The position numbers and the translations under genes are program-made. Shown here in pieces: positions 26,914 through 39,441 of a DNA stretch of 64,000 nt. Position 1 is the stretch's first letter. Every line of letters starts with the position of its first letter. The DNA is from Caenimonas koreensis DSM 17982 (GTDB lineage Bacteria; Pseudomonadota; Gammaproteobacteria; Burkholderiales; Burkholderiaceae_C): positions 1-64,000 of the forward strand of contig NZ_WJBU01000008.1 of NCBI RefSeq assembly GCF_009646335.1, read 5' to 3'. A model generated the notes under the pieces. It had not been told where the DNA came from. It saw only the letters and a program-made list of their open reading frames with translations, and made no database searches.

Positions 26914-27798
26914 TCACTGGTCAGCCGGCCGCGCATGCCGGTCAATGAACGACATGACCAGATCGAGTTGCGCGGGAACATTGAGCGCAGGCGCATGCCC
27001 GCACCCTTCGATCTCCACGACACGCACCAGGCCTTGAAGACCTGGGCCGCGCGCCATCATTTCGTCGGTCGTCTCGCGCAGCACCAGGTCTGATTCAGCG
27101 CCGCGCAGGCACAGCACCGGCACGCGCACCTGGTCGTAGTGGTTCCAGATCAGGTAGTCGTCGGCGTGATCGGTCAACTGCCGCACCATCTGCGGGTCGT
27201 AGTGCGGCGTGATGCGCCCGTCCGGCAAGCGCCGCGCCGATGTTTCGCTCAGGCGCCTCCACTGCGCATCGCTCAGCCAGCCGAAGGGCTTGTACACCTG
27301 CCGCAGGAATGCTTCGAGCTGCGCCATGGTCTCGAACGCCGGCGGGTTGCCTGCATAGGCGCGAATGCGCGCCAGCGCGGGCTCGGCCAGCTGTGGCGCG
27401 TTGTCGTTCAACACCAGGCTTTTGATCCGCGTCTTCATCGCCGGCTCGTACAGGCCAGCGGCGCACACAGTGCCAATTGCACCGCCCATGGATGTGCCGA
27501 CCCAATGCGCCTGGCCAATGCCCAGCTGGTCGAACAGCGCTGCGGCCAGCTTTGCATAGAAGGCCAGCGTGTATTCGTTGGCCGGGTCGGGGCTCCATTG
27601 CGAGAGCCCGCGGCCCAGCGTGTCGGGGCAGATCACGCGATAGCGCGACGAAAGGTGCTGCGCCAGCTCGTCCATGTCACGGCCCGTGCGCGCAAGGCCG
27701 TGCCACGCAATCACGACGTCCTCGTGCTGCGCGCCCCACTCCATGAAGTGGATTTCGCGGCCGGCGCAGGTCGCATAGCGGGACGAGGGTTGCGTCAC
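26914..27798 (-). CDS. Alpha/beta hydrolase, last gene of the PHB locus
   Basis: The 294-residue protein has an alpha/beta-hydrolase core with an HGLARTG oxyanion region, nucleophile elbow GTSMGG (serine), an aspartate in GAESDLV and a histidine in EGCGHAP. No signal peptide is seen, so it is cytoplasmic. It starts 10 nt before the LivK-type gene ends upstream, at the end of the polymer-degradation cluster, so an ester such as a 3-hydroxybutyrate dimer or a related ester is a plausible substrate. That is inference; many hydrolases of this family act on unrelated esters. Confidence 0.82.
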   Translation of the reverse strand: MTQPSSRYATCAGREIHFMEWGAQHEDVVIAWHGLARTGRDMDELAQHLSSRYRVICPDTLGRGLSQWSPDPANEYTLAFYAKLAAALFDQLGIGQAHWVGTSMGGAIGTVCAAGLYEPAMKTRIKSLVLNDNAPQLAEPALARIRAYAGNPPAFETMAQLEAFLRQVYKPFGWLSDAQWRRLSETSARRLPDGRITPHYDPQMVRQLTDHADDYLIWNHYDQVRVPVLCLRGAESDLVLRETTDEMMARGPGLQGLVRVVEIEGCGHAPALNVPAQLDLVMSFIDRHARPADQ

Positions 27799-27808
27799 TT
27801 TCAGCCTT

Positions 27809-28948
27809 TCATTTCAGCAGCTTGCCGGTGCTGCCGATCACCGTCACTTCCACGTAGTGCGAACCGATGCGGTTGTCGGGCGAAAAATTCACCGCAATGC
27901 CGCCGAGATCGAACTGGCCCATATTCTCCAGCGCCTTCAACACCTTCGCGCGCGTCGGGTTCGGCCCCGCGCGGCGCAGCCCTTCCACCAACACCTTCGC
28001 GCCGAGGAATTCCTCGAAGCTGGTGTAGTTGATGTCTTCCTTGGGTGCATGCTTCTTCAGCAGTTCCTGGTATTCGCGGATGACTGGCAGGTTCGCCATG
28101 TACGGATAGGGCACGACCTGGCTGATGCCCAGTCCGTGTGCGTTTTTCAGGCCGGCGAGCTTGACCAGCTCGCTCGGGTCCACCACCGAGATGTTCAGCA
28201 ATTGCGCCCCGCCGCCTGACTCCCGGTATTGTTTGACGAAAGCCGCTGTCGACTTGTTGACGGAGATCATGATGATCGCCTGCGGATCGGCCGCCTTGAT
28301 CTTCGCAACGGCCTGCGCCACCTTGTCGGTGTTGCGCTCGTAGCCGGCAGTGGCGGCCAGCTTCAGCTCGCGCCTGGTCATCGCCTTTTCGACACCAGCG
28401 AGCCCCGCCTTGCCGAAGCCGTCGTCCTGGTACATCACGGCGATGCGTTTCATGCCCAGCGTGGTGAGCTGCTGCACCATGTGCTCGGCCTCGTCGGCAT
28501 AGCCCGCGCGCACATGGAAAATCCATTGGTTGAAGGGGTTGCGCAGAGGCTCACCGCCTGTGTAGGGCGCCACAAGCGCGGCGCCGCCCTCCTCGAGAAT
28601 TCCGTCAGTCAGCAGCTTGCCGACGTTCGCCGTGCCGGCAAAGCCGAACAGCGCCACAACCTCCGGCCGGGCCAGCATCTCCTTCGTGAGGCGCACGGTC
28701 TCATCAACCTTGTACGCATCGTCGGACACGATGACCTTGATCTTCTGGCCGTTGATGCCGCCCTTGGCGTTGATGTGGTCGAAGTACAGCTTGCCACCCA
28801 GCACCATCTGCGCCCCGGTGGAAGCGAGCACGCCCGACAGGGGCGCGACTTGCGCGATGGTGATGTCACCCGCCAGCGCAATGTGGCCCGACACGGCGAG
28901 GGCTAGCCCCGCCAGGGCCCTGCGGCCCAGCGATAGTCCTGAATTCAC
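27809..28948 (-). CDS. LivK-type ABC transporter binding protein (second of the PHB locus)
   Basis: The 379-residue periplasmic protein has a signal peptide ending near IALAGD and the type I binding fold. Typical stretches are ITIAQVAPLSGVLASTGAQMVLGGKLYFDHINAKGGINGQKI, AVMYQDDGFGKAGLAGVEKAM and NKSTAAFVKQYRESG. The family binds branched-chain amino acids or other small carboxylates and amides for LivHMGF permeases. It lies between the 3-hydroxybutyrate-oligomer hydrolase and the alpha/beta hydrolase. The ligand may be a 3-hydroxybutyrate monomer or oligomer, judged only from its neighbours. Confidence 0.85.
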   Translation of the reverse strand: MNSGLSLGRRALAGLALAVSGHIALAGDITIAQVAPLSGVLASTGAQMVLGGKLYFDHINAKGGINGQKIKVIVSDDAYKVDETVRLTKEMLARPEVVALFGFAGTANVGKLLTDGILEEGGAALVAPYTGGEPLRNPFNQWIFHVRAGYADEAEHMVQQLTTLGMKRIAVMYQDDGFGKAGLAGVEKAMTRRELKLAATAGYERNTDKVAQAVAKIKAADPQAIIMISVNKSTAAFVKQYRESGGGAQLLNISVVDPSELVKLAGLKNAHGLGISQVVPYPYMANLPVIREYQELLKKHAPKEDINYTSFEEFLGAKVLVEGLRRAGPNPTRAKVLKALENMGQFDLGGIAVNFSPDNRIGSHYVEVTVIGSTGKLLK

Positions 28949-29038
28949 GGTTTGTCTCCTACTGCTTGAAAAGAGTCATCCCTGATGTCGCCGGGCTTTG
29001 CCGCAGGGAGCGTGCGCCCCCTGCGAGCCTCTGGTCGA

Positions 29039-37891: not shown

Positions 37892-37951
37892 TGCATAAGC
37901 CATTGATTTGAAACAGGATTCCCCACGACTGTGCGCCGCGTGACTGGGAAA

Positions 37952-37981
37952 CAGACAGTCAAACTGTCTGAAAACCAGACA
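37952..37981. promoter_or_regulatory. Overlapping palindromes, probable enhancer sites of the sigma-54 activator
   Basis: Two perfect inverted repeats overlap: CAGACAGT/ACTGTCTG with a 3-base spacer (37952-37970) and TGTCTG/CAGACA with a 5-base spacer (37965-37981). They share the TGTCTG half-site and lie about 75-105 bp upstream of the -12 element, the usual place for activator binding. A third inverted repeat, TGCCTG/CAGGCA (37983-37999), overlaps the activator's stop codon. Confidence 0.7.
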
Positions 37982-37992
37982 ATGCCTGCAAT

Positions 37993-39441
37993 TCAGGCAG
38001 CCGTTTCGAGCCGCTCGTAGAGCTTGGCGCGCGAGATGCCAAGCAGTTTGGCGGCCGCCAGCTTGTTGCCGTTGGTGGCGGCCATGGCGGCTTCGATGGC
38101 GTGGCGCTCGAGTTCGGCAACCTGCTCGGCCAGGGGCCTCAGCACCGATCCATCGGCGCGCGCTGGGGCAGCGGCGGCCGGCAATGCAATCTGCTTGACG
38201 CCCGATTCGCGCAGCACGGCTTGCAAGTCCGCCACCTCGATACGCTGCGTGTCGCTTCGCATCGCAGCTTGTTCGAGCACATTGCGCAGCTCGCGGATGT
38301 TGCCGCGCCACGCTTGCGCCGCCAGCATCGCGATGGCTTCTGCACTCAGCTCGAGCAAGCCAGTTGAGTTGCGCGTTGCGATGTCTTCGGCCAGCACTTC
38401 CACGAGCGCCGGGATGTCGTCGCGCCGCTCGCGCAGCGGCGGCACGCGCACAGGCAACACGTTCAGGCGGTAATACAGGTCTTCGCGAAACTTTCCTTCG
38501 CGCACGAGCTGGCCAAGATCGCGTGAGGTGGCCGCGATCACGCGCGCATTGAACGGGATGACTTTGTTCGAGCCGAGCGGCTCGATCTCGCCTTCCTGCA
38601 GCGCGCGCAGCAGCTTGGGCTGCAGCGCCTGCGGCATGTCGCCGATTTCGTCGAGGAACAGCGTGCCGCCATCGGCCAGCTTGAACTTGCCTTCGCGCCC
38701 CTTGCGGTCGGCGCCCGTGAAAGCGCCGGGAGCAAAGCCGAAAAACTCGGCCTCCAGCAGCGTATCCGGCACGGCCGCGATATTCACGCTCACCATCGGC
38801 CCATTGGCACGCGACGAAGCCGCGTGGATCGCCTGCGCCAGCAGCTCCTTGCCCGTTCCCGTCTCGCCGAGCAGCAGCACGGGGCTGGACGACATCGCGG
38901 CGCGGCGCGCCTGGCGCTTGACCTCTACCGCCGGCGCGCTGCTGCCCACGAAGCTCGCGAGCGTGTATTTGGTGCGGCGCTGGCTCGCGAGTTCGCGCCG
39001 CGCATCTTCAAGGTCGCGCTGGAGCGCAGCGAACTTCTGGATGAACGGCTGCAGCGTGGTTTCCGGATGATCGAACAACACGATGCCGAGCGCGCCGATC
39101 ACCTGCCCTGTCTCGTCGCGCAGCGGTATGCGGCTGACCACGAATGTGCCGGCGCGGTTGGAGAGCAGGTCGATCAGGATGGGCTTGCCGGTGCGGATCA
39201 CGCGGTCCATCTGTGTGTTTTGCACCACCTCCGAGACGGGATGGCCGACAAAGTCTTCGACTCTGTCGAAGCCCAGCGCGGGCAGGAATCGCTTGTATTG
39301 GTCGTTGATCCACACGACGCGCGCGTGGCGATCCACCAACATCATTCCTTCGCTGGCATTGGCGAACAGGTCGAACATCGACTGGGCGGCCAGCTCAAGG
39401 ATGCGTTGCCCGTCCAGCGGCAGCGGATCAACAGGATTCAT
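37993..39441 (-). CDS. PAS-domain sigma-54-dependent transcriptional activator
   Basis: The 482-residue protein has an N-terminal PAS sensor domain (about 20-125), a short coiled linker (about 135-158), and a sigma-54 AAA+ domain with Walker A GETGTGKE at 192-199, the sigma-54 contact loop GAFTGA at 239-244 and Walker B LFLDEIGD near 261-268. A Fis-type helix-turn-helix follows (about 445-480). No receiver domain is present, so it should respond to a ligand or redox state rather than a phosphorelay. It lies 164 nt upstream of the LivK-type gene, whose promoter is of the sigma-54 type with palindromes upstream. It is the likely local activator of the PHB locus. Confidence 0.92.

Follow-up and report, generated by a model that had tools for sequence, protein, structure and literature searches.

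In polysaccharide utilisation loci a local regulator is grouped with a secreted depolymerase, a surface hydrolase, an importer and a further hydrolase. A locus with the same plan, apparently directed at a polyester rather than a glycan and equipped with a Liv-type ATP-binding cassette (ABC) importer, is found at positions 26914-39441 of a 64,000-nucleotide stretch of Caenimonas koreensis DSM 17982 (positions 1-64,000 of NZ_WJBU01000008.1, assembly GCF_009646335.1), hereafter the window; no homology with the glycan loci is claimed. The locus is probably an inducible operon for the use of poly(3-hydroxybutyrate) (PHB), in which the Liv-type importer takes up oligomers and/or monomer of 3-hydroxybutyrate (3HB) and a soluble hydrolase finishes the oligomers.

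PHB is a well-known biodegradable plastic, and how soil and water bacteria take up its products is largely an open question. The HAAT (Liv/Urt) importers resemble the window importer in composition: a binding protein, a pair of permeases and a pair of ATPases, all from Liv families. The window importer differs from them in scoring below the amino-acid and urea equivalog cut-offs, in the replacement of the residues that we take to bind the amino group, and in its tie to PHB enzymes. HbtABC of Ruegeria pomeroyi is, we presume, a tripartite ATP-independent periplasmic (TRAP) transporter and not an ABC system. According to a 2023 paper hbtABC is the only confirmed bacterial 3HB uptake system; it shares with the window importer the substrate 3HB, here a proposed one, but is a three-gene system with which the available text of that paper mentions no depolymerase (PMC10130141). 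According to a 2021 review it is not known which transporter soil bacteria use to take up 3HB; HbuT of Bacillus subtilis is presumed there to take up 3HB, a likeness to our proposal, and is described in the available passages with no mention of an ABC operon (PMC8000602). On the regulatory side, (R)-3HB catabolism in Pseudomonas aeruginosa is controlled by a PAS-containing protein, HbcR (PA2005), which according to a cited title acts with RpoN. HbcR resembles the window's regulator by description only, as a PAS-containing enhancer-binding protein linked to RpoN and (R)-3HB metabolism, and no depolymerase or Liv importer is named with it in the available part of the source (PMC8694187). In the open-licence literature no report was found of a Liv-type or other ABC importer for 3HB, its oligomers or PHB products.

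The window locus consists of ten genes, all on the minus strand and with intact frames. In order, these encode a PAS-type sigma-54 activator (37993-39441), the Liv-type substrate-binding protein LivK1 (36629-37828), a type 2 PHB depolymerase (35003-36517), the ATPases LivG (34142-34972) and LivF (33420-34145), the permeases LivH (32357-33337) and LivM (31294-32343), a 3HB-oligomer hydrolase (29039-31258), a second binding protein LivK2 (27809-28948) and an alpha/beta hydrolase (26914-27798). This gene content and order had been given in the initial annotation and is confirmed, each name now being backed by a family search. From livK1 to the alpha/beta hydrolase the coordinates leave gaps of at most 111 bp or overlaps of 4 bp, which bears out the operon-like packing described earlier; spacing over this part is as in an operon. 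The regulator gene ends 164 bp from livK1.

Conservation of the order was examined in loci found by a contig scan with the window depolymerase. The best 80 of 103 relatives gave 78 loci, of which nine had too little flank and were set aside, leaving 69. Genes in the fetched loci were called by tblastn and a simple open reading frame caller. livK1 lies directly upstream and livG directly downstream of the depolymerase in 54/69 loci, and neither neighbour is present in the other 15. Linked loci with ample flank (48) always contain livF, livH, livM and the alpha/beta hydrolase (48/48), and 43/48 have a regulator homologue on the same strand. The 3HB-oligomer hydrolase occurs in 23/48 and livK2 in 14/48; the second binding protein is an optional part of the locus. 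Linkage is overstated in this set because it was seeded with the depolymerase and limited to close relatives. Acidovorax sp. GW101-3H11 (L077) and a Variovorax strain (L083) are among the environmental strains with the cluster.

For an even view, 150 genomes spread over the window's family were searched with match limits of E<=1e-100 for livK1, 1e-50 for the depolymerase and 1e-60 for the oligomer hydrolase. A livK1 homologue was found in 83 genomes, a depolymerase of the window's type in 30 and the oligomer hydrolase in 41. The depolymerase lies within 1 kb of livK1 in 21/30 genomes; for the oligomer hydrolase, 25/41 genomes have it no more than 9 kb away. A chance neighbourhood was rejected on the order kept in 54/69 loci and on these 21/30 depolymerases near livK1. 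PHB enzymes are also commoner in family genomes with livK1 (41/83) than in those without (13/67; Fisher p = 1.6e-4, kinship uncorrected). A sample of the order (300 genomes) contained livK1 in 24 genomes (E<=1e-60) and a type 2 depolymerase over the cut-off in 33. Counted here by matches over the family cut-offs, PHB enzymes occur in 10/24 genomes with livK1 and in 40/276 without (Fisher p = 0.0022, kinship uncorrected).

A putative control region precedes livK1. A sigma-54-type -24/-12 promoter-like site (TGGCATG-AGGC-GTGCA, minus strand, 37875-37890) scores 14/16 and begins 62 bp before livK1. Sites scoring at least 14/16 were found upstream of livK1 in 61/64 loci with the regulator, in 9/34 without it, and in 0.8% of shuffles that preserve base composition only. 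Next to the regulator gene stands a palindromic activator-like site, TGTCTGG-N3-TCAGACA (37965-37981, no strand assigned), with one mismatch to the pattern TGTCTGA-N3-TCAGACA, and further half-sites occur nearby at 37951-37957 and 37993-37999. With up to two mismatches, the pattern is present in 34/50 upstream regions between regulator and livK1, the window's included, and in 0.1% of shuffles of the same kind, these counts being made in the regions from which the pattern was derived. Separate checks came from the upstream regions of eight other genes, several of them coding, and from a genome scan. The palindrome was seen upstream of the regulator gene in 2/49 of the same loci and was absent upstream of the depolymerase (0/40), livG (0/47), livF (0/47), livH (0/46), livM (0/46), oligomer hydrolase (0/15) and alpha/beta hydrolase (0/41), the region upstream of livK2 not being tested. 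In the whole C. koreensis genome (4.6 Mb draft, 43 contigs) the site at 37965-37981 is the sole match at up to one mismatch. No sigma-70-type promoter was found at 26700-39700, and the 10 terminator-like sites there are no excess over the shuffle mean of 9.3.

The regulator itself matches PF00158 (220.8 bits), PAS_4 (25.5) and HTH_8 (45.2). It thus has the Sigma54_activat AAA domain and Fis-type helix-turn-helix of a sigma-54 enhancer-binding protein, and the GAFTGA motif of the sigma-54 activator family is visible in its translation. We propose that it is the dedicated regulator of the locus.

The enzyme identities of the initial annotation are supported by family searches and by comparison with a solved structure. 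The depolymerase passes the curated cut-off of NF050059, the model for type 2 extracellular short-chain-length polyhydroxyalkanoate (PHA) depolymerases (378.4 vs 280 bits). Its residues 26-343 align with the solved PHB depolymerase 2d80, including the SGLSSGG, GSSDTTVGPN and HVFPTDF regions (the nucleophile, Asp and His regions); the roles of single residues in these are presumed. From its family and an N-terminus that looks signal-like by eye, the enzyme is predicted to be secreted and to hydrolyse PHB. An Fn3-like linker follows (fn3 match of 22.1 bits, below the Pfam cut-off), and the last approximately 65 residues (35003-35200) match no Pfam family; this C-terminal part is possibly a polymer-binding domain. 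The 3HB-oligomer hydrolase matches PF10605 with 924.7 bits (cut-off 27) and is a probable lipoprotein, with the lipobox pattern LAGC; the pattern is present in 25/31 sequences, the window's included. The alpha/beta hydrolase matches Abhydrolase_6 (70.8 bits) and has no visible signal sequence. Its nucleophile and His motifs are found in 73/73 sequences of at least 240 aa. The presence of this hydrolase with conserved catalytic motifs suggests that an ester is imported, and we propose that it is a cytoplasmic hydrolase of 3HB oligomers (the dimer).

A Peripla_BP_6 protein, two BPD_transp_2 permeases and two ABC_tran ATPases in one gene row identify the transporter as a HAAT (Liv-type) ABC importer. 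LivK1 (184.9 bits) has an N-terminus that looks signal-like by eye, and LivK2 scores 204.2 bits with the same family. LivG carries ABC_tran and BCA_ABC_TP_C, LivF carries ABC_tran (110.2 bits), and LivH and LivM match BPD_transp_2 with 114.8 and 126.7 bits.

Going by these subunit family names, the importer could be a standard transporter of branched-chain amino acids or amides and share an operon with PHB enzymes by happenstance. Its subunits are nevertheless far under the relevant equivalog cut-offs. None of the E. coli-type Liv models of NCBIfam was reached (LivK-type 63.5 of 477 bits for LivK1, LivG 193.8/362, LivF 196/441, LivH 62.5 of 379, LivM 74 of 366), and the NCBIfam urea models likewise stayed below cut-off (UrtA 54.4/492.75 for LivK1, UrtB 146.1/250.3, UrtC 121.2/296.2, UrtD 202.6/304.1, UrtE 213.9/285.8). 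In E. coli LivJ and LivK the ligands of the amino group are presumably Tyr202 and Glu226, numbered as in mature LivJ. Equivalents of both are absent at the aligned positions in 99/99 LivK1 sequences, and an acidic residue lies within two columns of position 202 in 4/99 and of position 226 in 0/99. An amino acid is therefore unlikely as the ligand of LivK1. On the equivalog scores and these replaced residues an ordinary amino-acid or urea transporter was rejected, and, with the gene order around the PHB enzymes conserved as well, we consider the happenstance account very improbable.

The nearest solved chains to LivK1, 3n0x (526 bits) and 3nnd (508 bits), are annotated merely as possible ABC substrate-binding proteins; both are, we believe, from Rhodopseudomonas palustris. 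The available text of one paper describes R. palustris ABC binding proteins that bind fatty and dicarboxylic acids (PMC3223731). In beta-proteobacteria, fitness effects of ABC transporters on pimelate and, as printed, C7 and C8 fatty acids appear in the available part of another (PMC12543098). Because ABC systems for aliphatic acids are reported from both, a related substrate is plausible here. 3HB oligomers and/or monomer appear to be the best reading of what the importer carries.

A second livK1-like gene, 71% identical, is present elsewhere in the genome (contig C7:65223-66413, also L105:9724-10917). It has no other transporter-gene match directly beside it and adjoins an Lrp-like regulator gene (named by eye). 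Tandem pairs of livK1-like genes precede the depolymerase in L043, L090, G730 (contig C4) and G792 (contig C1).

We envisage the following course of PHB use. The PAS-type activator would sense a PHB breakdown product and bind the TGTCTGA-N3-TCAGACA sites upstream of livK1, and transcription by sigma-54 RNA polymerase would then run from the -24/-12 promoter through livK1 to the alpha/beta hydrolase. Solid PHB would be turned into soluble oligomers and monomer by the secreted type 2 depolymerase, and the lipoprotein oligomer hydrolase, on the cell surface or in the periplasm, would trim the longer oligomers. Short oligomers and/or monomer would be taken up by the Liv-type importer with LivK1, with or without LivK2. 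In the cytoplasm the alpha/beta hydrolase would split imported oligomers, and 3HB dehydrogenases encoded elsewhere would continue; the genome holds two that score over cut-off.

The importer appears to have a history of its own. In other genomes, the region around livK1 often has livK1-G-F-H-M but no polymer enzymes; some of these regions include the regulator and the alpha/beta hydrolase. A tree of LivG, LivF, LivH and LivM was built by a quick method from the 92 loci in which all four were found; its labels cover the fetched stretch only, and its sampling is biased, rows with polymer enzymes coming mostly from the depolymerase-seeded scan and the remainder from searches seeded with livK1. 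Polymer enzymes are absent from the fetched stretch of all 13 rows labelled same class or same phylum. All rows with polymer enzymes fall within a starred set of 74, of which 10 have none, and presence of the depolymerase changes 7 times on this tree. A depolymerase tree, which omits the partial depolymerase of L100, separates one starred branch of 56 rows from 27 others, and both kinds occupy the slot between livK1 and livG (37 and 24 loci). The window depolymerase is of the first kind, whereas L079, the nearest relative by transporter, has one of the second: the two transporters are 87% identical, the two depolymerases 56%. Descent of depolymerase and transporter as one ancestral unit was rejected on the two trees. 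Our reading is that the importer operon is the older element, that depolymerases were recruited into it, and that exchanges among them followed.

The promoter-like site also precedes modules that have no polymer enzymes in the fetched stretch (L107, L108, L115, L116 and L124, among others), so regulation of the livK1 module may be older than the PHB enzymes. As far as such comparisons of sequence reach, the best reading of the window locus is an operon for PHB use, founded on an older importer module with regulation of its own.

As a separate observation, the slot between livK1 and livG is taken in L121 and L122 by a distant depolymerase (41% identity). The L121 protein (354 aa) is too short for the Fn3-like and C-terminal parts of the window enzyme.

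The modules without polymer enzymes bear on what the importer carries. Among 28 such modules, 12 have the alpha/beta hydrolase, nine have a CoA ligase or CoA-transferase and none has both. This exclusivity fails in loci with polymer enzymes, 9/63 of which have both within 5 kb (loose search). The alpha/beta hydrolase is present in 60/63 loci with polymer enzymes.

An importer of monomer alone would be a narrower form of our explanation, and the likelihoods of the two overlap. The depolymerase and the surface hydrolase would then break PHB down to 3HB completely before it crosses the inner membrane, and the alpha/beta hydrolase would have some other substrate. This is compatible with the dedicated, lipobox-bearing oligomer hydrolase, with the two dehydrogenases and with the CoA-transferase gene found beside the module in L129 and L131, two loci presumably from Bradyrhizobium. 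Against it, the alpha/beta hydrolase would be needless for a pure monomer importer, yet it is kept in every fully flanked linked locus and in 12 of the 28 modules without polymer enzymes, and these two CoA-transferases score nearest FadX, a fatty-acid degradation model, below its cut-off. We regard uptake restricted to monomer as quite unlikely.

Several results weigh against an operon dedicated to PHB. The Fisher tests on the association of livK1 with PHB enzymes ignore shared ancestry. Polymer enzymes are outside the livK1 cluster or missing in 49/83 family genomes with livK1, and at the limits used 42/83 have no window-type polymer enzyme anywhere. The only other member of the window's genus that was sampled (G760) has livK1 and lacks both polymer enzymes. 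In the order sample only 5/33 genomes have the type 2 depolymerase beside livK1, and association with the oligomer hydrolase is weak at this level (5/24 vs 22/276, p = 0.051); the linkage of livK1 and depolymerase is lineage-bound. C. koreensis has, in addition, a type 1 extracellular PHA depolymerase-family gene (C42:208951-209730, 315.5 bits) that is unlinked, on another contig than the Liv genes. On the transporter tree the depolymerase lineage label is clustered, with 7 changes against 16-22 in the ten shuffles shown; this indicates, within the trees compared, that depolymerase and operon are mostly inherited together, with exchange only at times. Finally, modules of other lineages stand in part beside acyl-CoA ligase, enoyl-CoA hydratase, MaoC or CoA-transferase genes, which means that the ancestral substrate may be another carboxylic acid.

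This last point leads to a broader alternative, in which the module would import aliphatic acids, hydroxy acids or their esters at large (acids of the fatty, dicarboxylic or cutin type). The PHB enzymes would then have joined it only through a shared promoter or inducer, and 3HB would be a minor substrate. This alternative draws on a loose search within 5 kb of the 28 modules without polymer enzymes, which found CoA ligase in seven, enoyl-CoA hydratase in seven and MaoC in three, and on the acid-binding R. palustris proteins (PMC3223731) and the beta-proteobacterial fitness effects (PMC12543098), both as given in the available texts. It accords poorly with the retention of the hydrolase in nearly all loci with polymer enzymes and with the use of one slot by depolymerases of different lineages. 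We consider a general acid importer unlikely, though worth keeping in view.

The initial annotation had called the locus self-contained, and this part does not stand, as the transporter module has a wider distribution than the PHB enzymes. Its enzymes, its operon-like packing and the functional tie between transporter and PHB enzymes are supported; the tie rests on the conserved order, the shared promoter-like and activator-like sites and the exchange of depolymerases in one slot. It had also asked for gene order to be compared across relatives. Liv genes flank the depolymerase in most close relatives, and far less often across the order. The annotation had further held that the tie would fall if the Liv genes mostly occur without the depolymerase and oligomer hydrolase in relatives. 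Taken literally, this is what the 49/83 genomes show; we judge that the tie is not refuted, because the enzymes, where present in the family, are mostly in the livK1 cluster.

Under uptake of 3HB oligomers, clusters with an oligomer hydrolase and no adjacent depolymerase are allowed. Thirteen family genomes with livK1 have the oligomer hydrolase in the cluster and no adjacent depolymerase of the window's type. Six of them (G682, G738, G742, G793, G798 and G806, the G798 genome being 87% complete) have neither a type 1 nor a type 2 depolymerase at the limits used and are candidate oligomer scavengers. Species of this kind, in which importer and oligomer hydrolase occur and no depolymerase was detected, would live on oligomers released by neighbours. 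Genes of the type 1 depolymerase family occur in 72/150 family genomes, 70 of them over cut-off, and none was seen within 10 kb of livK1 when the listed positions were compared by eye.

The further proposal that the locus encodes the first Liv-type ABC importer of 3HB oligomers, and that this importer belongs to a modular polyester utilisation locus in which depolymerases and oligomer hydrolases are slotted into an older, self-regulated core of importer and hydrolase, is put forward tentatively, with the chances for and against it nearly balanced. The locus offers a concrete candidate importer together with a likely regulator, promoter and activator site. It could mark PHB users in metagenomes, and the importer is a candidate uptake part for engineered plastic recycling.

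Several neighbouring groups of genes were named by eye. Adjoining the operon, at 23068-26874, are two squalene/phytoene synthase-like genes and a ferrochelatase-like gene, the ferrochelatase-like group being present in 23/98 grouped loci. On the other side, 41991-47266 contains genes resembling TctA, TctB and TctC together with those for a response regulator and a sensor kinase, and similar genes occur in up to 22/98 grouped loci. A TAXI-type binding protein and fused TRAP permease-like genes follow at 47543-51049. Long repetitive open frames at positions 1-2500 suggest a repeat-rich gene at the start of the window.

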